From Candidatus Gastranaerophilales bacterium (GTDB lineage Bacteria > Cyanobacteriota > Vampirovibrionia > Gastranaerophilales > Gastranaerophilaceae): a stretch of DNA of 37,340 nucleotides. Of this stretch, positions 5,536 through 23,082 are shown piece by piece; position 1 is the first letter of the stretch; the number at the start of each line of letters is the position of its first letter. Position numbers and translations under genes: made by a program. The DNA is taken from contig CALVHD010000018.1 in the NCBI GenBank assembly GCA_944327245.1, positions 1 through 37,340 on the forward strand, read 5' to 3'. The notes under the pieces were generated by a model. It saw nothing but the letters and a program-made list of their open reading frames with translations. It ran no database searches and was not told where the DNA came from.

Positions 5536-7317
5536 ATGATAGATGATAATTTTTTAGCTGAATATGAAAATATACTATTTCAAGTTGAGCGCCCATCCAG
5601 ATACATAGGGGATGAATATGGTTCATATGATAAAGATTTCAATTCTGCGGATGGCAAATTTCTTTTTGTTTTTCCGGATAAGTATGAAATAGGAATAAGC
5701 AATTTTGGCCATAAAATAATTTACGATTTAATTAATAAGAAAAAAAATTTACTTTGCGACAGGTTATATGCTCCAGATAAAGATTTTTTAGAGTTATTAA
5801 AGAAAAATAATAAAGAAATTTATGCTCTTGAGTCTAAAAGAAAACCTAAAGAGTTTGATATAGTTGGTTTTGGACTTCAGTATGAAATGTGTTATACAAC
5901 TGTTTTAAAATTGCTAGAAATGTCTGACATACCAATATTTTCTAAAGACAGAAATGATACTCATCCGATAATTATGGCAGGAGGGCCATGTACATCTAAT
6001 CCTAAACCTATGAATAAATTTATTGATATTTTTATCATTGGAGATGGTGAGGATGTAAATATCGAAGTATTAGAAAGATATATTAAATTAAAAAATAAAA
6101 TGCCAAGGAATGAAATAATTAAAGAATTGGCAAAGATTGAGGGCGTTTATGCGCCATTAGTTAATAATAAAGCTGCGAAAAGAATTGCCAATTTGACTTA
6201 TGAAAATCATCCCGTAAATTCTCCAATTCCTCATTTTGCCTCTGTACACGATAGAGCAATAATTGAATTAAGACGAGGTTGCGGCAGATTGTGTCGTTTT
6301 TGTCAGGCTTCACACATTAATCTTCCGATTAGAGAAAGAAAAAAAGATGATATTGTGAAACTTGCTAAAGAATATGTTAAAAACACAGGTTATGATGAAT
6401 ATTCTTTATTGTCTTTATCTTCAAATGACCATGGAAAAATTGAAGAAATTTTAGCTGATTTAAGTTGTCATTTCAGAGGAACAGGGATTAATGTTTCTTT
6501 GCCATCACAACGAGCAGACAGATTTTCTTTGGAACTTGCTAAGTTAGCTCAAAGCGAAAAAAAAGCAACCGTTACTATTGCGCCTGAAGCCGGAAGTCAA
6601 AGAATGCGTGATGTTATCAATAAGAATTTATCTATAGAACAAATAATTAATGCAACAATTTCTTGTATTAAGAATGGCTGGAATAAAATTAAATATTATT
6701 TTGTTATCGGTTTACCTTTTGAAACTTATGATGATTTATCCGGAATTGTGGATTTAATTGAAAAGATTAATCTTTCCTGCCGAGAAAACGGTTTAAAATA
6801 TCCTCAAATTACTTGTTCGATATCTGTTTTTGTTCCAAAACCGCATACTCCTTTTCAATGGGCAAGGCAAAACACTATTTCTGAAATACAAGAAAAGATT
6901 AAATATCTAAAGGAATTAAAAGATAAATTAAAAAATGTTAAATTCAATTTTCATAATCCCAAAATGTCGCAATTGGAAGCTTTTTTCACTCGCGGGGATG
7001 AAAATTTGTGTGATTTTATTTATGAACTATATAAACAAGGCTCATATTTAGATTCTTGGGATGAAAATATGGATTTTGATTTGTATCAAAAAGTTGCAAA
7101 CAAATTGAACATAGATATTGAAAAAGAGGCTTCAAGAGAATTTTTAAGCGATGAAATTTTACCTTGGGACAATATTTTCTATGGTGTTAATAAATCTTGG
7201 CTTTTGACTGAGTACAATAAAGCAAAACAGGCGATTGCAACTGTTCCTTGTGAGGTAAAATGCAATAATTGCGGAGTATGTTCTAATTTTAAAACTAAAA
7301 AGATTTTAGATAAATAA
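5536..7317 (+). CDS. Radical SAM protein with B12-binding-like N-terminus (TIGR03960-like)
   Basis: This 593-residue protein has an N-terminal domain resembling the cobalamin-binding fold (FPDKYEIGISNFGHK, FDIVGFGLQYEM, PIIMAGGPCTSNP, FIIGDGED). A radical SAM barrel follows, with the cluster motif C249-x3-C253-x2-C256 in RRGCGRLCRFCQA, and later TIAPEAGSQRMR and VIGLPFET. The order is that of the widespread but poorly characterised TIGR03960 family, often fused or adjacent to a DUF2344 protein; none is seen here. A CNNCGVC cluster at the C-terminus may hold another iron-sulfur or metal site. The ATG lacks a strong ribosome-binding site. An HLR1-like repeat lies upstream. Reaction unknown; possibly RNA or protein modification. 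Confidence 0.85.
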   Translation: MIDDNFLAEYENILFQVERPSRYIGDEYGSYDKDFNSADGKFLFVFPDKYEIGISNFGHKIIYDLINKKKNLLCDRLYAPDKDFLELLKKNNKEIYALESKRKPKEFDIVGFGLQYEMCYTTVLKLLEMSDIPIFSKDRNDTHPIIMAGGPCTSNPKPMNKFIDIFIIGDGEDVNIEVLERYIKLKNKMPRNEIIKELAKIEGVYAPLVNNKAAKRIANLTYENHPVNSPIPHFASVHDRAIIELRRGCGRLCRFCQASHINLPIRERKKDDIVKLAKEYVKNTGYDEYSLLSLSSNDHGKIEEILADLSCHFRGTGINVSLPSQRADRFSLELAKLAQSEKKATVTIAPEAGSQRMRDVINKNLSIEQIINATISCIKNGWNKIKYYFVIGLPFETYDDLSGIVDLIEKINLSCRENGLKYPQITCSISVFVPKPHTPFQWARQNTISEIQEKIKYLKELKDKLKNVKFNFHNPKMSQLEAFFTRGDENLCDFIYELYKQGSYLDSWDENMDFDLYQKVANKLNIDIEKEASREFLSDEILPWDNIFYGVNKSWLLTEYNKAKQAIATVPCEVKCNNCGVCSNFKTKKILDK

Positions 7318-7318
7318 A

Positions 7319-8104
7319 TTATAATCTATGAAATATTGGTTTCATTTTGTCAAAGGTTGTGAAATATTTATAGCCTATTGATTTTAGAAATTCTTGCATG
7401 TCTTTGATTTTATAACCTAAGTGTTTTGTATTGTGTGAATCTGAGCCTATAGTTATAATTTCGCCGTTTAGCTCTTTGTATAATTTTAAAATATTTTTTG
7501 ATGGCATTAAGTCTTTTAGATTGTATCTGAATGAAGATGTATTGAGTTCAATTCCTTTTTGATTTTCGATTATATGAACTAAAATTTTTTCAATTATTTC
7601 TTTTGAAAATTTAAAAGGATATTCGCCAAAGTCATCATATCTTCTTATTAAATCTAAATGACCTAAAACGCTGTAATTGTTAAAGACTTTAATGGTATTG
7701 TAGATTTCTTCATAATATCTTTGGTTGTATTGAGCTTGTGTTTTGCCGTTTTGAAAGCTTCTATCCCATAAATCTTTATCTTCAACAAGATGAAAAGACA
7801 TGATTATAAAATCAAAAGAGTATTTTTTAAATACATTTTCAAAGTAATCTTTGTGATGGGCTTGCATACCAAATTCCATGCCTTGTTTAATTTTTATTTT
7901 GTTTTCATATTTTTCTTTTAATCTTTTTATTTCTTTAAAATAATTATTATAGTCGCAAATAACACAGGTTTTGCTGCCATAATCCGTATGGTCCGTAAAA
8001 CATATTTCATCAAGTTTTAGAAATAAAGCTTGTTTAATATAGTCTTCCATTATTACATTTGAATCACAGCTGTAATTTGTGTGGATATGATAATCTACAA
8101 ACAT
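7319..8104 (-). CDS. PHP-domain histidinol-phosphatase family protein (HisK type)
   Basis: A 261-residue PHP protein with DYHIHTNYSCD, FTDHTD, GMEFGMQ, FIIMSFHLVED, VLGHLDLIRRY, IELNTSS and IGSDSHN, the HisK histidinol-phosphatase arrangement. In histidine synthesis this enzyme dephosphorylates L-histidinol phosphate. No his gene is nearby. It is instead the last gene of a signalling operon, its ATG overlapping the TAA of the DivK-like receiver gene by one base (TAATG). It may be the orphan histidine-pathway phosphatase or a phosphoesterase of another small molecule or signal. Family firm, substrate uncertain. Confidence 0.8.
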   Translation of the reverse strand: MFVDYHIHTNYSCDSNVIMEDYIKQALFLKLDEICFTDHTDYGSKTCVICDYNNYFKEIKRLKEKYENKIKIKQGMEFGMQAHHKDYFENVFKKYSFDFIIMSFHLVEDKDLWDRSFQNGKTQAQYNQRYYEEIYNTIKVFNNYSVLGHLDLIRRYDDFGEYPFKFSKEIIEKILVHIIENQKGIELNTSSFRYNLKDLMPSKNILKLYKELNGEIITIGSDSHNTKHLGYKIKDMQEFLKSIGYKYFTTFDKMKPIFHRL

Positions 8105-8472
8105 TAGAGTTTTTCCAGTTTTTGTTTAATTATTCTAACAAAATTATTTATGTCTATAGGTTTTGTTAAGTAGTCAGTGATGTTGTGTTCTTTTGCTTTT
8201 TGTTTGTCTGTATCCATAGCGCAAGCGCTTACTATAATTATAGATGGAGTTGGTATGTTTTCTTTTTTTAATTTTTCAATTAAGCTGAATCCGTCCAGTT
8301 TTGGTAGTTGTATATCCAAAATAATCAGGTCATAATTATTTTCTTTTATTTTATTGTATGCATCCAAGCCGTCATATGATTTTTCAACATTATACTTTTG
8401 ATATGTTAATATATCATAAAATAATTTCATATTTAGTTCGTTGTCTTCAACAATTAATATTTTTTTTGTCAT
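8104..8472 (-). CDS. Single-domain response regulator, DivK-like
   Basis: The 122-residue protein is one receiver domain without an output domain: ILIVEDNELNMKLF at the start, phospho-acceptor D53 in LIILDIQLPKLDG, a Ser in the switch position (VSACAMD) and the lysine in YLTKPID. VEDNELNMKLF is characteristic of DivK and related receivers that act through protein contacts. It overlaps the kinase gene upstream by 4 bases (ATGA) and the phosphatase gene downstream by one base, so the three are translationally coupled. The kinase next door is the obvious phosphodonor (inference). Not a CheY in a motility operon, since no che genes adjoin it. Confidence 0.88.
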   Translation of the reverse strand: MTKKILIVEDNELNMKLFYDILTYQKYNVEKSYDGLDAYNKIKENNYDLIILDIQLPKLDGFSLIEKLKKENIPTPSIIIVSACAMDTDKQKAKEHNITDYLTKPIDINNFVRIIKQKLEKL

Positions 8473-9704
8473 AGAATTATATTTTTAAACTCCAAAATAA
8501 AAGTTGTTCCTTTGTTGACTTCGCTTTCAAGTGAAATTTTACCTTTGTGCAGTTTTACAAGTTCTTTTGTAATTGTTAGACCAAGACCTGTTGAATTTTG
8601 ATTTTTAGAGTAGACATTGTTGATATGAACAAATTTTTTAAATATTTTATTGTGAAATTTTTTATCTATTCCAATACCGTTATCTTTTATTTTTAGGGTA
8701 TAATTTTTATCCTTTTTAGATTGTATGATTTCGATTTCTCCTTTTTCTTTTGTAAATTTGATTGCATTGGATAAAAGATTATAGAGAATTTGTTGAAATT
8801 TTTGGTAATCTGCTTTAATTTTGCATTCAAAATTTGGGTTGAATTTAACTGTAATGTTTTTGTTTTCATATAAAGGCTCTAAAATATTTACAACCTCTTG
8901 TATTGTTTGGCTTGGGTTTAATTCAATCGGACTGAATTTCATAGCATGGGCTTCAAGTTTTGAGATATCCAATATTTCATTTATCATTCCTAAAAGATGT
9001 AAGCTGGAAATTTGAATATCTTTGATATATTCAGCTTGTTTTTCATTTAAATCGCCAAAAATTTTACTGTCCAGTGCTTGAGAAAAACCGATAATCGCGT
9101 TTAACGGAGTTCTCAGTTCGTGTGAAATATTTGCTAAAAATAAATTTTTTGTTTTATCAAGCTCCTGCAGTTTTTTATGTTGTTTTTTGATAATTTCATA
9201 TGCTTCTTGTTTTTCTGTCATAGCTTCTTGCAAGGCTTTAAGTTGGATTTTAAAGACTTCATTAAGCTCGTAATCTTTTATTTTATAGCTGATTATTTGA
9301 GATAGCGCCAAAAATGATGTTTTTATTTCAGGAGTCATTATTTTATCGCTGCTTAAAACGATAATTCCAAAGACCGATTCTTTGATTGCTAATTTTGAAA
9401 ATAGAGTATTTGAATATAGCAAGTTATCTTTTTTTGTTTTAATTTCTTGGTATTTATTTTTTGAATTAAAAAAATTAAAAAATAAATCAACATTTGGTGA
9501 ATAATTTTCGATAAAAGAGTTATTGTTAATTGCCTTTTTTGTTATCAGGCTTGAATTTTCACAAAAGAATATGCCTAAAGATGAGTCTTTATATAATGAA
9601 GACATCATTTTTAATACGGATTGATAAAAATTAAGATTTTTAACTTGTGTATCATTAATGATGTCATCTATTAAATTTAAACTTTCAGATAGTAAATTTT
9701 CCAT
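8469..9704 (-). CDS. Cytosolic sensor histidine kinase with GAF-like sensor and coiled coil
   Basis: From ATG 9704 the protein has 411 residues; the frame can also begin at TTG 9725. About 150 N-terminal residues resemble a divergent GAF domain. A coiled-coil linker follows, then HisKA with the phospho-acceptor in NISHELRTPLNAIIGF, and a HATPase domain with N box (LLSNAIKF), G1 (DNGIGID) and G2 (STGLGLTI). No membrane helix or signal peptide is seen, so the signal is internal or comes from a partner. It overlaps the downstream receiver gene by four bases. No ribosome-binding site precedes the ATG, while TATAAT-like boxes lie just upstream, so a leaderless transcript is possible. Kinase call secure; ligand unknown. 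Confidence 0.9.
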   Translation of the reverse strand: MENLLSESLNLIDDIINDTQVKNLNFYQSVLKMMSSLYKDSSLGIFFCENSSLITKKAINNNSFIENYSPNVDLFFNFFNSKNKYQEIKTKKDNLLYSNTLFSKLAIKESVFGIIVLSSDKIMTPEIKTSFLALSQIISYKIKDYELNEVFKIQLKALQEAMTEKQEAYEIIKKQHKKLQELDKTKNLFLANISHELRTPLNAIIGFSQALDSKIFGDLNEKQAEYIKDIQISSLHLLGMINEILDISKLEAHAMKFSPIELNPSQTIQEVVNILEPLYENKNITVKFNPNFECKIKADYQKFQQILYNLLSNAIKFTKEKGEIEIIQSKKDKNYTLKIKDNGIGIDKKFHNKIFKKFVHINNVYSKNQNSTGLGLTITKELVKLHKGKISLESEVNKGTTFILEFKNIIL

Positions 9705-9754
9705 ACTATTAATTATAGAATACAATTATAATTCTACAAAAAAGTTAATATATT

Positions 9755-14564: not shown

Positions 14565-14731
14565 ATAAAAAAAGATAAGCAATTTTTAATTACATATATA
14601 CTTTATATATATGTAAGACATAAATAACCCCTTAAATAAAGTTTAAACACACTAATCACACACTAACCTTTCATCACGAGAATCAAGAAAACAAAGATTT
14701 TCAACCCTCTTAATTATTAAGAGGGTTTTTG
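14565..14731 (+). ncRNA. Candidate small RNA between clpC and the sigma-repeat gene
   Basis: After the clpC terminator a second intrinsic terminator faces the plus strand at 14703-14731 with no open reading frame before it. The only plus-strand transcript that could end there must start within this roughly 140-bp gap. AT-rich boxes around 14590-14615 (TATATA repeats) could serve as a -10. The segment 14640-14700 is C/A-rich and unlike typical AT spacer. The 5' end is not determined, and no known RNA family is recognised. Confidence 0.3.
14703..14731 (+). terminator. Orphan plus-strand intrinsic terminator
   Basis: AACCCTCTTAA (14703-14713) pairs with TTAAGAGGGTT (14717-14727), followed on the plus strand by TTTTG and more T-rich sequence. 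On the minus strand the stem is followed by GAAAATC, so it does not suit the minus-strand gene that ends at 14738. Confidence 0.7.
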
Positions 14732-14737
14732 TTATAT

Positions 14738-17029
14738 TTATTCAATTTTAATATCAAATATATCATCTTTTTTAATTGCTTCGTAAGCTAGATTTTTAGC
14801 GTATTCAATAAATTCTTGGCTCATGGGGTCATCAATTATTGAAAAACTGAATTTTGAATTTGGATTTTCTCTTAAATAGTCAATTAATTTTTGATTTATT
14901 CTGCCGTTTCCTAAAACTGATTTAGGTGCACCATAACCAAACATTTTATTTCTTAATAATATTGAATAATTTGTTTCATTTTTATACGATAACGAGTTTG
15001 GTTTTTTTATTACTGATTCAACTATTTTTCTTAAATCCCATTTTTTATGTATATTCTTTTTAATAAAAATCAATGCTCTTATGTGATTTTCTATTGTTTC
15101 AGGTGACTGACAGAATAACGAAGGTTGCCTTAGGCAAGCTGGTATATAACTTTCGACGCTCAACCCTTCTTTTTCAAATTTTTCAATTAAACTTTTAATA
15201 TTATTTTCTATTGTTTCAGGGGTTTGATAAAAAAGTGACGGTTGCTTTAAACAAGCAGATAAATAATTTTCAATAGTTAACCCATCATTTTCAAACTTTT
15301 CAACTAAACCTTTAATGTTGTTTTCTATTGTTTCAGGTGATTGATAGAACAATTGAGATTGTTTTAAACAAGCTGGTATATAACTTTCAACGCTCAACCC
15401 TTCTTTTTTAAACTTTTCAACTAAACCTTTAATATTATTTTCTAGGGTTTTAGGGGACTGACAGAATAACGAAGGTTGCCTTAGGCAAGCTGGTATATAA
15501 CTTTCGACGCTCAACCCTTCTTTTTCAAATTTTTCAATTAAACTTTTAATATTATTTTCTATTGTTTCAGGGGTTTGATAAAAAAGTGACGGTTGCTTTA
15601 AACAAGCAGATAAATAATTTTCAATAGTTAACCCATCATTTTCAAACTTTTCAACTAAACCTTTAATATTGTTTTCTATTGTTTCAGGTGATTGATAGAA
15701 CAGCGAGGGTTGTTTTAAACAAGCTGGCAAATACTTTTCAATAGTTAGTCCTTCATTTTCAAACTTTTTAACTAAAGACCTAACATTATTTTCTATTGTT
15801 TCAGGTGATTGAGTAAACAATTGAGGTCGTCTTAAACAAGCTGGCAAATACTTTTCAATAGTTAGTCCTTCATTTTCAAACCTTTTAACTAAAGACCTAA
15901 CATTATTTTCTATTGTTTCAGGTGATAGGTAAAATAATTGAGGTTGTTTTAAACAAGCTGGTATATAACTTTCAACAGTTAACCCTTCATTTTCAAACTT
16001 TTCAACTAAACCTTTAACGTTGTTTTCTACTGTTCCAGGTGACTGGCAGAATAACGAGGGTCGCCTTAAACAAGCCTGTAAATAACTTTCTACAGTTAAT
16101 CCTTCTTTTTCAAATTTTTCAACTAAAGATCTAACATTCTCTTCTGTTTTTTCAGGCGACTGAGTAAACAATTGAGGTTGTCTTAAACAAGCAAGTGTAT
16201 AATCTTCAACAGTTAACCCCTCTTTTTTAAATCTTTCAGTAGTAGCTATAATGTTATTTTTAACTTCATCACTAAGAGTATTATTTTTAATTTGTATTTT
16301 ATATATTGCTCTTTTAAAAATATTTCTAACGGTCGTATTTGAAACATTATGATTTTGCGCAATTGATTCATAGCTATTAACTCTATCATCTTTAAATCTT
16401 AAAGATAAGATTTCTTTTTCTTTATCTTTTAAACAAGCTCCATCAAGCGCTTTATCAACTTCAATTCTATATTTTTTTCTTTTTTCTTCATCAGGGGCTG
16501 AAAGATATCTTACTTTATATTTTTCATCATCAGCAATTATATCTTGAATTGTTTTTTTATCATCAAGTATTGGTGTATCAAGGCTTATTGACCTAAAATC
16601 ACTAACATAATCACCTTTATTTGCTTTAATATTTTCATAAATTGCTTCAATACTTTTTATTAATTCATCTTTAGATATTTTTCCATCATTAAAATCTTGT
16701 AAAACAATTAAAATTTCAACTATTGCGCTTTGTACAACATCATCAATTATTTTATTATTAACCCCTTTTTCTTGAGCTTTCTTGTTTAATTTCTTTAAAA
16801 GAAAATCAAATAATTCGTTTTCATCTCCTCTGTTTAATAATCTTTCTAATCCAACACTAAAATTATCTTCTTTTCCTTTAAAATTAATCATACTTTTATT
16901 TAAAAGCATAAAATAGTTATCAAACAAAAGAAATGATTGATTACTTTGATTGTTGTGATTATTTTTTTGCGGGCTTTTTATTTTAGAATGATAAGTTAAA
17001 TTGAAATTTTGCAACGGATTTATTTTCAT
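14738..17029 (-). CDS. Sigma-70-like protein fused to ten 39-residue mTERF/TALE-like helical repeats
   Basis: Residues 1-60 are Asn-rich and contain INFKGK (48-53). Residues 60-115 resemble sigma-70 region 2 (IIDDVVQSAIVEIL). Residues 147-170 match the region 3-4 linker (SISLDTPI, then IQDIIADDE). Residues 195-245 are a region 4 helix-turn-helix (KEKEILSLRFK, YESIAQNHNVSNTTVRNIFK). From residue 280 to about 669, ten repeats of exactly 39 residues start A-C-L-[KR]-[QR]-P-[QS]-L-F and continue PETIENN, L-x-x-[KR]-F and GLT-x-E-x-Y. A C-terminal domain of about 95 residues follows. The repeat pattern (P-x-L-F, then a helix, then a G-L-[TS] turn) resembles mTERF motifs and, more loosely, TALE repeats, so nucleic-acid binding is the favoured guess. 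No close bacterial homologue is known to me. The 763-residue protein is divergent from the HD-repeat gene. Sigma-like features are good; function is inference. Confidence 0.8.
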   Translation of the reverse strand: MKINPLQNFNLTYHSKIKSPQKNNHNNQSNQSFLLFDNYFMLLNKSMINFKGKEDNFSVGLERLLNRGDENELFDFLLKKLNKKAQEKGVNNKIIDDVVQSAIVEILIVLQDFNDGKISKDELIKSIEAIYENIKANKGDYVSDFRSISLDTPILDDKKTIQDIIADDEKYKVRYLSAPDEEKRKKYRIEVDKALDGACLKDKEKEILSLRFKDDRVNSYESIAQNHNVSNTTVRNIFKRAIYKIQIKNNTLSDEVKNNIIATTERFKKEGLTVEDYTLACLRQPQLFTQSPEKTEENVRSLVEKFEKEGLTVESYLQACLRRPSLFCQSPGTVENNVKGLVEKFENEGLTVESYIPACLKQPQLFYLSPETIENNVRSLVKRFENEGLTIEKYLPACLRRPQLFTQSPETIENNVRSLVKKFENEGLTIEKYLPACLKQPSLFYQSPETIENNIKGLVEKFENDGLTIENYLSACLKQPSLFYQTPETIENNIKSLIEKFEKEGLSVESYIPACLRQPSLFCQSPKTLENNIKGLVEKFKKEGLSVESYIPACLKQSQLFYQSPETIENNIKGLVEKFENDGLTIENYLSACLKQPSLFYQTPETIENNIKSLIEKFEKEGLSVESYIPACLRQPSLFCQSPETIENHIRALIFIKKNIHKKWDLRKIVESVIKKPNSLSYKNETNYSILLRNKMFGYGAPKSVLGNGRINQKLIDYLRENPNSKFSFSIIDDPMSQEFIEYAKNLAYEAIKKDDIFDIKIE
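15023..16192 (-). repeat. Tandem 117-bp coding repeats (10 units), with a recent three-unit duplication
   Basis: Ten in-frame 117-bp units encode the 39-residue repeats. Bases 15105-15316 recur without difference at 15456-15667, an offset of exactly 351 bp (three units), and identity continues with one mismatch to about 15350. Other units are more diverged, so this copy event is recent. Confidence 0.93.
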
Positions 17030-17133
17030 ACTTTTATTAAAACTTGTAAAAAATTTATTTGTTTTATAGGATTAAGTCAACAATATTTATTGAGATTTTT
17101 TAATAAATATGTAGAAAAGTGTGTAGAATATTT

Positions 17134-20100
17134 ATGCATTTAGATAGTGATTTTAGAAATAAAAATATTTTAAGTTATAAAAAGAATATTGATTGCAAAA
17201 AAACAAGCGGATTGTTTTTTGTTTTTGGCAATTCCGGCGGGAGTGATGTTTTTTCAAGCTCAAAACCAAATGTAAAAAAAGGTTTTGTGTTTAAAATTTT
17301 ATCTAAAACCTTTGGTCTAATGGATAAAATAAATGGTTCTTACAGGTTTGAATTATTAACTTATAAAGATGAAAACGGGCAAGATTTATTTAAAAACAGA
17401 CAGGTGATAAAATCACTATTAAAATCAAGTGCTGAAGTTCAAAAAAATGCTCTACAATTGGCACAATTAAAAGATGAAAACGGCGAAAAGTTGTTTAGAC
17501 GTGAACAAACTATTCAACTGTTGGCTGAAGCAGATGAAAAAACAAGAGCTCAGGTTGTTTCTTTTGCGCAAATTGAAGATGATAATAATAGAAGACTTTT
17601 TACAAATGAAACAAGGCTGGTTAATTTGGCGTTATCAGATAAAGATTCTTGTGATAGAATTACTGATTTGCTAAATAGAACAGATAATAAAGGAAAAAAG
17701 ATATTTTCAAGCGAAGTTGCGATAAATTCAATTGTAGGAAGCGGAAATCAAACATATTTAAATGCTTTGAGTTTTTTAGATGCTGTTGATGAAAAAGGTG
17801 AAAAATTATTTCAAAATGAATGGGTTATAAAAGATTTATCAAGGTATGATGAAAAAACCTGCAGAGATTTAATTGAGCTAGCAAAATTAAAAAATAGAAA
17901 AGGTAAAAGAATTTTTTCTGATGAAAAAAAGCTTCGTGAACTTGTAAAAAATGATGGAAATGCTGCAAAGGCCGCTCTTGAAATTGCATCTTTTACGGAT
18001 GAAAACAACGAGAAGCTTTTTGATGATGAATATTCAATTATGAAACTTTCTTTGTTGGATGAGGATATAAAAAAAGAAGCGCTACACTTTGCAAGTCTAA
18101 AAGATGACGATGGAAGAAGGCTTTTTGTAAATCCGAACGTGCTTATATTTCTTACAAAGCTAACAGATAACGGTAAACAAACCGCGGTTAAATTGGCAAA
18201 ATTAAAAGATGATAATGGCAAGAGATTATTTTCAAATGAATTTTTCATATTTAATTTAGCAGAAACCGATAATTCAGTCATAGACAAAGCTTGCCAATTG
18301 GCAAGATTAAAAGATGAAAATAATGACAGATTGTTTTCAAATGAATCTTTGATAATGAAATTAGCACAAACTGATGATAATGTTGTAAAAAATGTTATCA
18401 ACCTTGCAAAATTAAAAAATCATAACAATGAAAGATTGTTTTTGGATGATTTTGATTTATTGCATTTAGCTAAAAGAAACCTTAAAGTCCGACAAATAGC
18501 GATTAAACTAGCTTCTTCGGCGGATGAAAATAATGAAAGATTGTTTAAAAATACGTCTTTAATTGCTGAAATTGCAGTAAAATTGGGAATATTTGTCAAT
18601 AATAGTCCATCTTTAGTTGATGATTTTATTAATATTTGCAAATTAAGTTGCGATGGTACTAAAATCTTTAATCCTAATTTTGCATTAAAAATGGCAAGAA
18701 ATCATAAAAATTTTGATTTTGAAAAATCTCAAAAATTTATAAATCAAAATCGCGGCCTAATAAGTGAAATATTAAATTTAAAAACGGATGATAAAATAAA
18801 AAATGAATTGTTGTTGAGAGCAACAAAATTAAATGAAGATGACTTTTTTAGTTTAACTCTTGATGAAAAATTACAAAAAATTGATGTATTGCAGCAAATA
18901 AAAGAAGATGATGACATTAGCGACGCTATTAAAGATTTATTAAATATTCAGTCTGATTTAGATTTTTTAAAAAACAGTGTAAACCACGTAATTACTCCGA
19001 CAAAAACAAAACAAGAAGACATAAACAGGATGTTTAAAGGTTTTTTTGCAAACAATAATCCCGATTTAGAAAATACTTTAAAGACATCTGATTTTACAAT
19101 ATACGGAAAACAAGGTCTTCCTCTTGCTTATTCAAAAAATGAGTTTTTGTCAGATCTGGATAGTGTTTTATCTGAAATGGATGAAAATTCAAAAATTAGA
19201 TTACTAAACAAACTCCAAATAACGGAATTGAGGAATGAAAACGATGATTTAGCCGGTTATAACGGGGTAATTAATCTTGATTTTGTTTGTGAAAATGAAT
19301 TTGAGAAAAAAGCTCTTGATTTAGCTAAAAAGTTTATTTTAAATAATGAAATAAAAACAGGCAGTTTCAAGCTTGATAATGCGCTTAATTCTTTAATTAA
19401 AGGCATGCCGGAGTTTATTAATGTTATTGGAAAAACTCAGCATGATACTCAGGATTATTCTGTAGATATTCATATTTTAACTGTATTAAACGGTGTTTTA
19501 AACAATCCTAATTATAGTCAATTATCTGAAATTGACAAAACAGTCATAAAATTGGCATCAATTATGCATGACATTGCAAAACCCCAAGGTGTTAACGATA
19601 AAAATCATCCCCAATATTCTGCTTTGTTTGCAAAAGATATTTTGGATAAATATAATCTATCTTATGAATTAAAAGATAGAATTTTCGAATTGGTTAAAAA
19701 TCATCATTGGCTTGAATTATATAATACAGGACAAAAAGATGCAGAATATATTGCTTCATTATTTAGAAGAAAAAATGATATAAATATTGCAAGAATTATG
19801 ACAGAAGCTGATTTGAAAGCTGTAAACAAATCTCAATCTTTTTATAATGCTTTTAAATCTGCGCTTGAATTTAAAATGCAAAATCCGATTGACGAGGCTT
19901 TGTTTTCAATAAATTCGCTTGGTCAAATGTTTTTAACGTCAAAAATTGTAAATAAATCTCTAATTCCTGTAAAAAAAATAAATAATGAAGAATATCAAAT
20001 TATTGATTTTACACAATTACCAAATGATTTTGACTTATCAAAATATGGATTTTCTCCAAACACTACTCCTGAAAATTTGAGATTGTTGGTTCATTGTGTT

Positions 20101-20694
20101 GATGATAAAAAATTACAAATGCTTGAGGCTGCAATTGATTTAAGAAATCCTAATTACGAAGGATATCTTTGTGCTTCTTATATATCAAAGGATAATAAAA
20201 AAACATATTGTTCAAATGATTTTGGAGTAAGTTTAGAAGCTGAGAATGTTAATATTTCAAATGCTTATTTTTGCAATCAGGGTTCAGGGGCTCATAAAAC
20301 TTTTTCTACGTTTAGTTTTGATTTAAACCAAGTTGATAGATACAGAAAATTTATCAGCGGATATATTAAAGAACAATTGGAGCTTACTGATGAAGAATAT
20401 GTTGATTTATATTTAAAAATTCAAAAGCTAAAATATGTTTCACAATTAGATAATATTTCTTTTATAAGAATAAAAAATAAAGAATTAGACGCTAAAAAAG
20501 TTAAAGAAGCTATATTGAACGCTAATCAACAAATGATTGCTTATAAAAATACGCTGGATAATAATGAGTTAAACATATATTTACCAAAAGTTAATGCTCT
20601 TATTGCAAAAGTTGATTTAATTGATGAAATTCCAAGTGAAATGTTGGATATTGCCAAAAAATTTAATTTACCTATTTTTGTTTTAGGAAGTTGA
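17134..20694 (+). CDS. Large protein with twelve 35-residue helical repeats and an HD phosphohydrolase domain
   Basis: The frame opens at GTG 17119; ATG 17134 is preferred (1186 residues), though neither has a clear ribosome-binding site. Numbering here is from 17119. Residues 83-480 hold twelve repeats of 35 residues built as DENG-x-x-LF, a first helix ending in L-A, and a second helix (A-L-x-L-A-x-L-K). A degenerate thirteenth copy is near 510. After a helical region (530-690), residues 775-900 form an HD-type domain: H785, H817-D818 (SIMHDIAKPQG), H862/H863 (KNHHW) and D898 (TEADLK). This order resembles the HD domain of tRNA nucleotidyltransferases and GlnD. The last 290 residues are unrecognised. 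No signal peptide is evident. Substrate unknown; the repeats suggest protein or nucleic-acid binding. Confidence 0.82.
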   Translation: MHLDSDFRNKNILSYKKNIDCKKTSGLFFVFGNSGGSDVFSSSKPNVKKGFVFKILSKTFGLMDKINGSYRFELLTYKDENGQDLFKNRQVIKSLLKSSAEVQKNALQLAQLKDENGEKLFRREQTIQLLAEADEKTRAQVVSFAQIEDDNNRRLFTNETRLVNLALSDKDSCDRITDLLNRTDNKGKKIFSSEVAINSIVGSGNQTYLNALSFLDAVDEKGEKLFQNEWVIKDLSRYDEKTCRDLIELAKLKNRKGKRIFSDEKKLRELVKNDGNAAKAALEIASFTDENNEKLFDDEYSIMKLSLLDEDIKKEALHFASLKDDDGRRLFVNPNVLIFLTKLTDNGKQTAVKLAKLKDDNGKRLFSNEFFIFNLAETDNSVIDKACQLARLKDENNDRLFSNESLIMKLAQTDDNVVKNVINLAKLKNHNNERLFLDDFDLLHLAKRNLKVRQIAIKLASSADENNERLFKNTSLIAEIAVKLGIFVNNSPSLVDDFINICKLSCDGTKIFNPNFALKMARNHKNFDFEKSQKFINQNRGLISEILNLKTDDKIKNELLLRATKLNEDDFFSLTLDEKLQKIDVLQQIKEDDDISDAIKDLLNIQSDLDFLKNSVNHVITPTKTKQEDINRMFKGFFANNNPDLENTLKTSDFTIYGKQGLPLAYSKNEFLSDLDSVLSEMDENSKIRLLNKLQITELRNENDDLAGYNGVINLDFVCENEFEKKALDLAKKFILNNEIKTGSFKLDNALNSLIKGMPEFINVIGKTQHDTQDYSVDIHILTVLNGVLNNPNYSQLSEIDKTVIKLASIMHDIAKPQGVNDKNHPQYSALFAKDILDKYNLSYELKDRIFELVKNHHWLELYNTGQKDAEYIASLFRRKNDINIARIMTEADLKAVNKSQSFYNAFKSALEFKMQNPIDEALFSINSLGQMFLTSKIVNKSLIPVKKINNEEYQIIDFTQLPNDFDLSKYGFSPNTTPENLRLLVHCVDDKKLQMLEAAIDLRNPNYEGYLCASYISKDNKKTYCSNDFGVSLEAENVNISNAYFCNQGSGAHKTFSTFSFDLNQVDRYRKFISGYIKEQLELTDEEYVDLYLKIQKLKYVSQLDNISFIRIKNKELDAKKVKEAILNANQQMIAYKNTLDNNELNIYLPKVNALIAKVDLIDEIPSEMLDIAKKFNLPIFVLGS

Positions 20695-20774: not shown

Positions 20775-21632
20775 ATGTTAAGGATTACATCAGGTGTTGC
20801 TTTTAAATCGGTTGTTTCTCCGATAAAAAAAGATATTTGCTTTAAAGGTAAAATGCAAAAAGATAATATGCAAGATACTTTTCAAATGAGCGGAAATGTT
20901 TCTTCAAGAGAACAAGTTTTTTATACCATGGGTAAAGTGATGGCTAAACAAGGCCGATATAAAGAAGCTTTAAAAAATTATGATAAAGCGCTAGAATCAA
21001 ATCCTGATGCAAATATTTATTTTGACAAAGGCGTAGCAATAATGAAGCTTGCCAAAAAAACAAAAAAAGACGGCGATGAGCCTTTGGCAACAGAATATTT
21101 TAATGAAGCATTAATTAATTTAAAACAAAGTAATAATTTAAGAGAAAATCCAAAAACAGCATATTATATTGCGATTGCACAATATGAACTTAAAAATTAT
21201 TCTGAAGCACAAGAAGCTTTTGTGGTTTGCATGCCATATTTAAAAGCGGAGCTGCAAGAAAATCCTGATGACGAAAAAATAAAGGCAAAATTGTTTGATG
21301 TGTATATGAAAAAAGGTACTTGTCATATGCTTATGTCTAATTCTCGTTTATCTAAAGAAAGCTTAAAAGCATATGTTGAATTTAGCAGGGCTTTAAAAAT
21401 AAATCCAAATTCAGATGCAGCATTATATGCAAGGTCACTTGTAAATTTTAATCAAGATGGTGCAATTGCAGATATTAAAAAAGCAATAAGTATTAATCCA
21501 AGTGTTGCTGAGTATTATGATGCTGCATGTGATGCTTATATGATGACAAGCGATAAGCAAAGTATTCAAAAAGCAGTTGATTATATGAGCCAAGCAATAT
21601 CGTTAAAACATCAATATCATTATATTGTTTAG
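20775..21632 (+). CDS. Tetratricopeptide-repeat protein with N-terminal FKGK motif
   Basis: The 285-residue protein starts at ATG 20775 after AAAAAGG. Residues 1-30 contain ICFKGK. Canonical TPR units follow: FYTMGKVMAKQGRYKEALKNYDKALESNP (in part), then IYFDKGVAIMKLAKK, AYYIAIAQYELKNYSEAQEAF, and further copies near SRALKINPNSDAALYARS and AISINPS. It has no signal peptide, membrane helix or catalytic motif, so it probably scaffolds protein contacts. It lies 80 bases after the HD-repeat gene on the same strand, with a possible promoter of its own, and converges on the 21641 gene with 8 bases between stops. Partner unknown. Confidence 0.85.
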   Translation: MLRITSGVAFKSVVSPIKKDICFKGKMQKDNMQDTFQMSGNVSSREQVFYTMGKVMAKQGRYKEALKNYDKALESNPDANIYFDKGVAIMKLAKKTKKDGDEPLATEYFNEALINLKQSNNLRENPKTAYYIAIAQYELKNYSEAQEAFVVCMPYLKAELQENPDDEKIKAKLFDVYMKKGTCHMLMSNSRLSKESLKAYVEFSRALKINPNSDAALYARSLVNFNQDGAIADIKKAISINPSVAEYYDAACDAYMMTSDKQSIQKAVDYMSQAISLKHQYHYIV

Positions 21633-21640
21633 ACTTAATA

Positions 21641-22918
21641 TTAATTATTAACAATATCTGTTACGTTTTTCCAACCTTGCGGAGTTTTTCGTATTGCTTT
21701 GCCTACCGTCATAATGTTATTAATATTTTCAATGCGTTCTTTATAATATACAATTTCATTCATAACGAACGATAAGCTTTTATCGATTTTTTCATTGCTG
21801 CCATATGAATCATATCTGATACCTTCTCTATATGAGTTTATTTGCCCATCTTCATAAGAAATTGCTTTTCCGATAGTTTCTATTCCGTTTGTTGATTTGC
21901 TAATTTGTTCGTGGTAAAACTCAGGTTGATATTTATCAGCAAAACAGATGTGTTTAAAAATTTGCTGTGAACCTTTAGGGTTATTTCTTTCGCATTCTTT
22001 ATAAAAGCCTGATACTTTGTTATCTGTGGTTGTAGAAACACAAAGTTGTCTTGTGGTCCACGAACTTCCGTCTACGCCTTGTTCTTGTCCTTCTTTGTAT
22101 ATGAAATAAGTCATTGGACGATTTTCTTCATTTTCCGGATTTTGAATATTGGCTTCATTGTTAATTTTATAGTATAGACTTTGAAGCGATGCAACTGTTC
22201 CGTCCTTTAATTCTTCTACTTTTTTTCTGTATGTGAAAGATGAATTGGCACTGTCAAAAAGTTTTGAAGTATCAATTTGCTTATTTATTTTCTTTGAACC
22301 GTCTATATGGTATTCTATTCCTTCTTCATATTGTTCGAGTGTTCCTGTGTATGCGTTGTATAAATATCTTTTTTCGATTTTTTTGCTTCCGTCGGGTGCT
22401 GTTTCTTCACCTTCTGTTATTTCAAGATATTTTCTTGATTTGTCAAGTATAGCAGTCTTTTCTATTTGGCCGTTTGATTTAAAATAATCTATTCTTATTG
22501 AATTGTCGTTTTTATTTCTTGTGTATTTTTTTACCAGTTTGCCATCTATATCTATTTCATTTCCGCTTTCAAAAAATCCCCAAACATTGCTGCTCATTAT
22601 TTCTTTGTAGACTTTGGCAGCATAGCTTTGTGCTTTGTATGCTTCTGTTATAATCTCGTTTGCAAGTGTGAATATATCTGCTGATTTTTTTGTTAGCGCC
22701 TCATTGCATTGTTCTGCATTGTCATTTGTTGTAATGAAATTTTTTATGGTATCTTTAATTTCTTTTGGGAGTTGTTCTTTATTTGCTGTGTAAGTGTCGG
22801 TTTGATTGATTTTCCCAAATTTAATGTTTTGGTTTTTGTAGTTTGTTGTTGTTTGATTAACATTTGATTTTATGTTTGGATAATTGTTTATATTTTTTTG
22901 GATTGAAAAAATGCGCAT
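21641..22918 (-). CDS. Hypothetical protein with imperfect Y-x-E-G / D-G-S repeats (YwqK/MORN-like)
   Basis: ATG 22918 follows CGGAGAT and is preferred over the longer frame from 22957, giving 425 residues. The first 35 are Asn-rich and end in NIKFGKIN, the same type of motif as in neighbouring proteins. Residues 35-100 are helical (LPKEIKDTIKNFI, EIITEAYKAQSYAAK). From about 115 on, short beta-like units recur: EIDIDGKLVKKY, EETAPDGSKKIEKRY, YEEGIEYHIDGSKKINKQ, YKEGQEQGVDGSSW and YREGIRYDSYGSNEKI. The spacing is similar to MORN-variant or YwqK proteins and suggests a repetitive beta meander. No signal peptide or known enzyme motif. Role unknown. Confidence 0.72.
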   Translation of the reverse strand: MRIFSIQKNINNYPNIKSNVNQTTTNYKNQNIKFGKINQTDTYTANKEQLPKEIKDTIKNFITTNDNAEQCNEALTKKSADIFTLANEIITEAYKAQSYAAKVYKEIMSSNVWGFFESGNEIDIDGKLVKKYTRNKNDNSIRIDYFKSNGQIEKTAILDKSRKYLEITEGEETAPDGSKKIEKRYLYNAYTGTLEQYEEGIEYHIDGSKKINKQIDTSKLFDSANSSFTYRKKVEELKDGTVASLQSLYYKINNEANIQNPENEENRPMTYFIYKEGQEQGVDGSSWTTRQLCVSTTTDNKVSGFYKECERNNPKGSQQIFKHICFADKYQPEFYHEQISKSTNGIETIGKAISYEDGQINSYREGIRYDSYGSNEKIDKSLSFVMNEIVYYKERIENINNIMTVGKAIRKTPQGWKNVTDIVNN

Positions 22919-23082
22919 ATTAAATCTCCGAAATGTTACACTACCTATAACACACAAATATTAAAAAAGTTGCTAACTTTCTTTTTTAATATTTTTAAGA
23001 TATGTTAAGTTTTTAAATTTTATATTAAAGTTTTATGCTTTAATGTCGATTTCTTAGTTGTGTGTAATTTTTATAAGGACTG

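Follow-up and report, generated by a model that had tools for sequence, protein, structure and literature searches.

A sigma-derived domain fused to ten mTERF repeats in Gastranaerophilales, a candidate sequence-reading transcription regulator

Introduction

The DNA-reading coil of the mTERF proteins was formerly known mainly from mitochondria and chloroplasts. Organelle genomes are controlled by such proteins, while the first report of prokaryotic counterparts dates from 2024 and came without known biology. These prokaryotic mTERF-like tandem repeat proteins were named pTERF by Hu et al. (2024, NAR; PMC11417379), and two of them, pTERF1 and pTERF2, bind specific DNA at nM affinity, different arrays recognizing different motifs, so that repeats of this kind have been seen experimentally to read DNA in a modular way (PMC11417379). 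The mTERF motif is defined by Pro at position 8 and hydrophobic residues at positions 11, 18 and 25 (PMC11417379). In human MTERF1, the loop prolines line the DNA major groove, and the residues of direct readout are R162, R202, R251, R350 and R387 (PMC4705650). Here we describe a gene whose product carries a sigma-derived domain followed by ten mTERF repeats. It lies on a contig of 37,340 nt, analysed at its full length and called the window below, from a gut bacterium of Candidatus Gastranaerophilales with a genome of 1.70 Mb over 45 contigs.

Results

Gene and domain organization

The features of the gene and its surroundings are as follows (positions in the window).

14738..17029, minus strand: 763-aa open reading frame, with leader, sigma-derived domain, ten mTERF repeats and C-terminal cap
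17030..17061, minus strand: promoter-like element CAAATAAATTTTTTACAAGTTTTAATAAAAGT, immediately before the ATG, common to relatives
16868..17029, minus strand (aa 1-54): N-terminal leader ending in ...SMINFKG, predicted to be disordered (pLDDT ~30)
16634..16867, minus strand (aa 55-132): sigma region 2-like helices, with 2.1/2.2 kept and 2.3/2.4 missing
16730..16732, minus strand: codon of Q100, which aligns with the D-x-x-Q of sigma region 2.2
16490..16585, minus strand (aa 149-180): linker SLDTPI..., like sigma region 3.2/the linker preceding region 4
16274..16462, minus strand (aa 190-252): sigma region 4 helix-turn-helix, by Pfam and fold match
15050..16219, minus strand (aa 271-660): ten 39-aa mTERF repeats, three helices per unit
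14741..15049, minus strand (aa 661-763): C-terminal cap, made of a further, degenerate mTERF-like unit (KKPNSLSY) plus a beta-alpha-beta tail
14703..14727, no strand assigned: 11-bp inverted repeat with T tract, probable intrinsic terminator, directly 3' of the gene

The initial annotation had described a single open reading frame with ten 39-residue repeats, and this is borne out: the frame is unbroken throughout its 763 aa, the ten units are each exactly 39 aa long from aa 271 on, and TRF finds a period of 117 nt in the DNA (9.8 copies, score 1167). The C-terminal cap is conserved in most relatives. The gene is flanked by a convergent clpC-like gene on one side and a divergent HD-domain gene on the other, and the probable terminator right behind it suggests that it forms its own transcription unit. 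The product of the divergent neighbour (17119-20694, plus strand) is 1191 aa long and combines KDENGxxLF repeats with an HD domain; in another species of the genus, a homologue with 55% identity (L037:8383-10908) is likewise transcribed divergently from a sigma-mTERF gene. Searches for phage, plasmid and viral-contig relatives gave no match, so there is no sign of a phage origin in them. Moreover, the same architecture recurs in about 20 genes of independent assemblies, and thus the fusion is no accident of assembly.

mTERF repeats by sequence and by predicted fold

The ten repeats are mTERF repeats, as judged from sequence matches and from the modelled fold. Pfam mTERF (PF02536) matches the 763-aa protein with 47.7 bits against a cut-off of 23.1 (E 1.3e-12) and, at E <= 0.01, 14 of the 27 relatives in the alignment, and in the relative L099 the mTERF match reaches 1.1e-21. 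Further Pfam matches on the repeats (RuvA_C, FliK, PqqD and others) were rejected as repeat noise; no stretch passes alone. When a profile of the 27 relatives was compared with the sequences in the PDB, the best match was mS93 of the Tetrahymena mitoribosome (1.4e-6), and human MTERF1 was also matched from sequence alone (1.4e-4). The defining motif is found in the repeats of the window, with the proline, F at P+3, I/L at P+10 and L or another hydrophobic residue at P+17, and it is mostly present in 265 repeats of the family.

The AlphaFold (AF2) model of the array (pLDDT ~95) is a superhelix of three-helix units. Foldseek matches 1-8 with this model are all MTERF1-DNA complexes, and in the VIA alignment the best nine rows are MTERF1 or MTERF3 throughout, the human MTERF1-DNA complex with Z 15.9 over 316 residues and MTERF3 with Z 14.8. 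MTERF4-NSUN4, MTERF4 in ribosome assembly intermediates and mitoribosomal mS93 are among the structural matches too. The initial annotation had likened the array to both mTERF and TALE repeats and suggested a comparison of folds. The likeness to mTERF stands, by sequence and by fold; TALE is probably not the relative, since mTERF proteins fill all the top fold and sequence matches, and neither TALE nor any other DNA-reading repeat fold is among the fold matches listed.

Alpha-solenoids frequently bind proteins, and the array could in principle be such a solenoid with no role in nucleic acid binding. We consider this very unlikely, because its relatives by fold and sequence are the nucleic-acid-binding mTERFs and its loop positions are basic and polar.

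Variable positions and the register of MTERF1

The MTERF1 register was set with F243 as the anchor, and every named residue fell on the right letter: R162 corresponds to P-2, where P is the loop proline, R202, F243 and R350 to P+1, F322 to P+4, and R251 to P+9. The variable positions named in the initial annotation are P-2, P-1, P+1 and P+4. The residues that it gave for them (KQ, RQ or RR, then Q or S, then T, C or Y) are correct, and the variable residues sit where MTERF1 reads DNA. Its statement that variation is confined to a few positions was too strong, as repeat positions 6, 9, 23 and 31 of the array vary also.

Across 42 relatives with 265 repeats in all, within-protein variability peaks at P+4 (0.70), followed jointly by P+12 and P+1 (0.62), then P-1 (0.60) and P-9 and P+5 (0.59). 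The triplet P-2/P+1/P+4 is more variable than random triplets (permutation p 0.006), and P-2 is the most basic position across the family, 69% of repeats having K/R there. Variability is therefore enriched at the reading face but not exclusive to it; P+12 and P-9, which are other surface positions, are no less variable than those at this face.

These positions also bear on what kind of nucleic acid is read. RNA binding is known for many mTERFs of plants and for those of mitoribosomes, and mTERFs also bind protein partners. An array that binds RNA, in a protein acting after the start of transcription (on nascent RNA, rRNA or RNA stability), would agree with mS93 as the best PDB sequence match and with the ribosome assembly intermediates of MTERF4 among the fold matches. 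We regard it as decidedly unlikely, since the repeats are tandem and near-identical, with their variable residues at the DNA-facing positions of MTERF1, the sigma-derived domain points towards the polymerase, and it is DNA that the published pTERFs bind (PMC11417379).

A trimmed sigma-derived domain

TIGR02937 matches the protein over aa 80-246 (3.8e-9); the sigma domain alone falls short of the cut-off of this NCBIfam model (41.4 bits vs 42.9), and the sigma-like domains of 15 of 20 relatives match it. Pfam Sigma70_r4 is found at aa 199-245 (30.3 bits vs a cut-off of 24.1, 3e-7), and the fold of region 4 agrees with 3n97_A (Z 9.0, rmsd 1.1 over 51 residues). In addition, hhalign of the domain from the 20 relatives against the eight sigma factors of the genome itself gave a probability of 97.8, and ordinary sigma factors match the domain from the linker (aa 149-180) onward. 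When the sigma-like domain was folded alone, all 50 of the 50 Foldseek matches listed were sigma factors, and they cover region 2 as well as region 4.

In the D-x-x-Q of region 2.2, the Q (Q100) is kept in 20 of 20 sigma-like domains, where it is the sole invariant column, and the D in 17. Region 2.2 belongs to the surface with which sigma factors bind the RNA polymerase beta-prime clamp; the invariance of Q100 in the 20 related domains may nevertheless be structural and not due to polymerase contact. The melting motif of region 2.3, F-x-S/T-W/Y, is absent from all 20 domains, which have no Trp in this stretch, and is present in seven of the eight true sigma factors of the same genome. Pfam Sigma70_r2 is not among the 25 families listed for the protein, and the model has low confidence around the missing region 2.3/2.4. 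Without the melting and -10 elements of region 2.3/2.4, the domain lacks one of the defining features of a sigma factor, and sigma-derived is the better term for it.

The sigma part is thus real but trimmed, and not a full sigma factor. The initial annotation had proposed a region 2-like element, the linker and region 4, of which 2.1/2.2, the linker and region 4 are kept while 2.3/2.4 are missing. Its further proposal, a sigma module with its own reading superhelix, holds for the presence of the module; a sigma factor that opens promoters is unlikely with the melting part lost.

Distribution among Gastranaerophilales

With the repeats and C-terminus as query, relatives were found in 34 of 386 genomes of the phylum, every one in a single family. 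The full sigma-like domain (E < 1e-50) is present in 18 genes from 17 of those 34 genomes, with open frames of 433-777 aa, and altogether the sigma-mTERF fusion amounts to about 20 genes in nine genera of this one family of Gastranaerophilales. The array is present in every complete sigma-bearing member examined, being degenerate in L102. Other members of the family have a helix-turn-helix (L099, L128) or no sigma domain ahead of the array. Repeats with no sigma domain are in fact commoner than the fusion, and hence the array does not need the sigma domain. They also occur in sampled MAGs labelled Aenigmatarchaeota and Alphaproteobacteria (L117, L122, L123, L126, L127), labels that could reflect error or contamination. 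Within the genus, mTERF is found in 6 of 28 genomes, and in 0 of 14 control bacteria; the sigma-mTERF gene is accessory and patchy. A sub-branch with longer units carrying KDExGKPLLTL inserts (L075:12972-14132, L077:4214-5413 and L039:9663-11225) shares genomes with sigma-bearing members.

The plain helix-turn-helix, or nothing, in the same place in some relatives, together with the trimming of region 2, could mean that the repeats read DNA and that the sigma-derived domain only adds a further DNA-binding element, the helix-turn-helix of region 4, beside what is left of region 2, and makes no contact with the polymerase. This seems to us unlikely, as a remnant of region 2 with no role should decay, yet D-x-x-Q is the best-kept piece of the domain, and the order of region 2, linker and region 4 is kept across 20 genes and nine genera.

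Turnover of the array

The mTERF array is evolvable and turns over by whole units. L038 and L040 are 86.6% identical in leader and sigma domain and 87.8% in the C-terminus, gapless, whereas one array is longer than the other by 117 aa, which is precisely three units, and the reading residues differ as well. The array of the window has a 351-nt period of its own, which suggests a recent duplication of three units. Upstream of the start codon, L038 and L040 share ~33 identical bases in contexts that are otherwise unrelated, as if gene and promoter moved together. In another species (L036), the counterpart of window gene 5536-7317 has a sigma-mTERF gene directly upstream; the window gene itself has no such neighbour (compared within 5536-9725), and this indicates that the sigma-mTERF gene changes place.

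Promoter-like element and leader

No Shine-Dalgarno sequence precedes the gene. The common element upstream, (G)CAAA followed by an A/T run and GTTTTA, ends 7-10 nt before the ATG, with its GTTT 13-16 nt upstream of the start codon in many members, and it also stands upstream of L038, L040, L079, L082, L083, L091, L092, L094 and L103. The pattern was found before 17 of 38 family genes, which have few Shine-Dalgarno sites, vs 6 of 316 other ORFs, and the six are mostly leader-type proteins or relatives. The element looks like the promoter of a nearly leaderless mRNA. A scan of the own genome returned this gene, and nearly all the other sites were chance matches with no plausible ORF start, so no regulon is drawn from the pattern there.

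Nearly every relative starts with a similar leader, M-K/R-I/V ... F-x-G, and so do unrelated neighbours. Leaders of the type M-K/R-I/V ... F-x-G/A/S are carried in the window by the unrelated proteins of 20775-21632 and 21641-22957, and elsewhere by L039:6580, L041:11174, L041:16038 and L102:5810. Such a common N-terminus, present also on other proteins of the lineage, might be read as an export mark, with the array acting in another cell or host like a TALE effector. That seems very unlikely, given that the apparently housekeeping protein L039:6580 (DHH-type by sequence) has the leader as well, and that a sigma-derived head would be useless away from a bacterial polymerase.

Discussion

Considering these results together, we propose, with a probability of roughly 0.5, that the protein is a site-specific, sequence-reading transcription regulator whose trimmed sigma domain docks it on RNA polymerase. 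The ten mTERF repeats would form a superhelix along the DNA major groove, where the residues flanking each loop proline (P-2, P-1, P+1, P+4 and P+5) would make the choice of sequence. The sigma-derived domain would hold RNA polymerase via its region 2.2 face, and/or its region 4 would touch the beta flap or a -35-like element. As the melting and -10 elements are gone, the protein on its own could not open a promoter. Its role would be to recruit RNA polymerase, or the DNA of the holoenzyme, to a site, or to hold and block the polymerase there. Judged from the domain content, an adaptor that docks on RNA polymerase or binds a -35 element is more likely than a promoter-opening sigma factor. For this protein, DNA binding, polymerase docking and the direction of regulation are all what we infer.

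More generally, and more tentatively, mTERF arrays may serve this lineage as DNA-address modules that can evolve, with a trimmed sigma factor linking them to RNA polymerase; the array would set the place and the sigma remnant would bring the polymerase. If so, they would represent a class of regulator distinct from sigma factors and ordinary activators, naturally reprogrammed by gain and loss of repeat units. The recurrent sigma-derived fusion ties the prokaryotic mTERF repeats to bacterial transcription and gives them a testable job. Furthermore, if the array reads DNA with the mapped residues, it would offer a programmable DNA-binding scaffold beside TALE and zinc fingers, with natural variants of length and code to learn from.

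Comparison with known systems

Prokaryotic mTERF-like DNA binders are already known (PMC11417379), and there is a good chance that the sigma fusion is functionally new; a literature search, with most subscription journals outside its reach, found no paper on it. Like the protein described here, the pTERFs are prokaryotic proteins with tandem mTERF-like three-helix repeats, found in MAGs of gut bacteria with 3-11 units and arrays that differ between homologues. In contrast to them, the present protein has a sigma domain, of which the main text of PMC11417379 makes no mention, the two being compared by description; and while pTERF1 is said to be without the Pro8/Leu11/18/25 pattern (PMC11417379), the repeats here have it. 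With human MTERF1 (3MVA and related structures) the array shares the superhelix of three-helix units, the loop proline and the positions P-2/P+1/P+4. MTERF1, which binds DNA, flips bases and terminates transcription, differs in being mitochondrial, with degenerate, non-tandem motifs and no sigma domain. Region 2.1/2.2, the linker and region 4 stand in the same order as in the sigma-70 family and the ECF sigma factors, from which the protein departs in having neither the region 2.3/2.4 melting and -10 motif nor region 3 and in being fused to a predicted DNA-reading array. With TALE it shares the idea of tandem repeats with few variable reading residues, but it is set apart by its repeat anatomy, namely 39-aa three-helix mTERF units whose putative reading residues lie around the loop proline.
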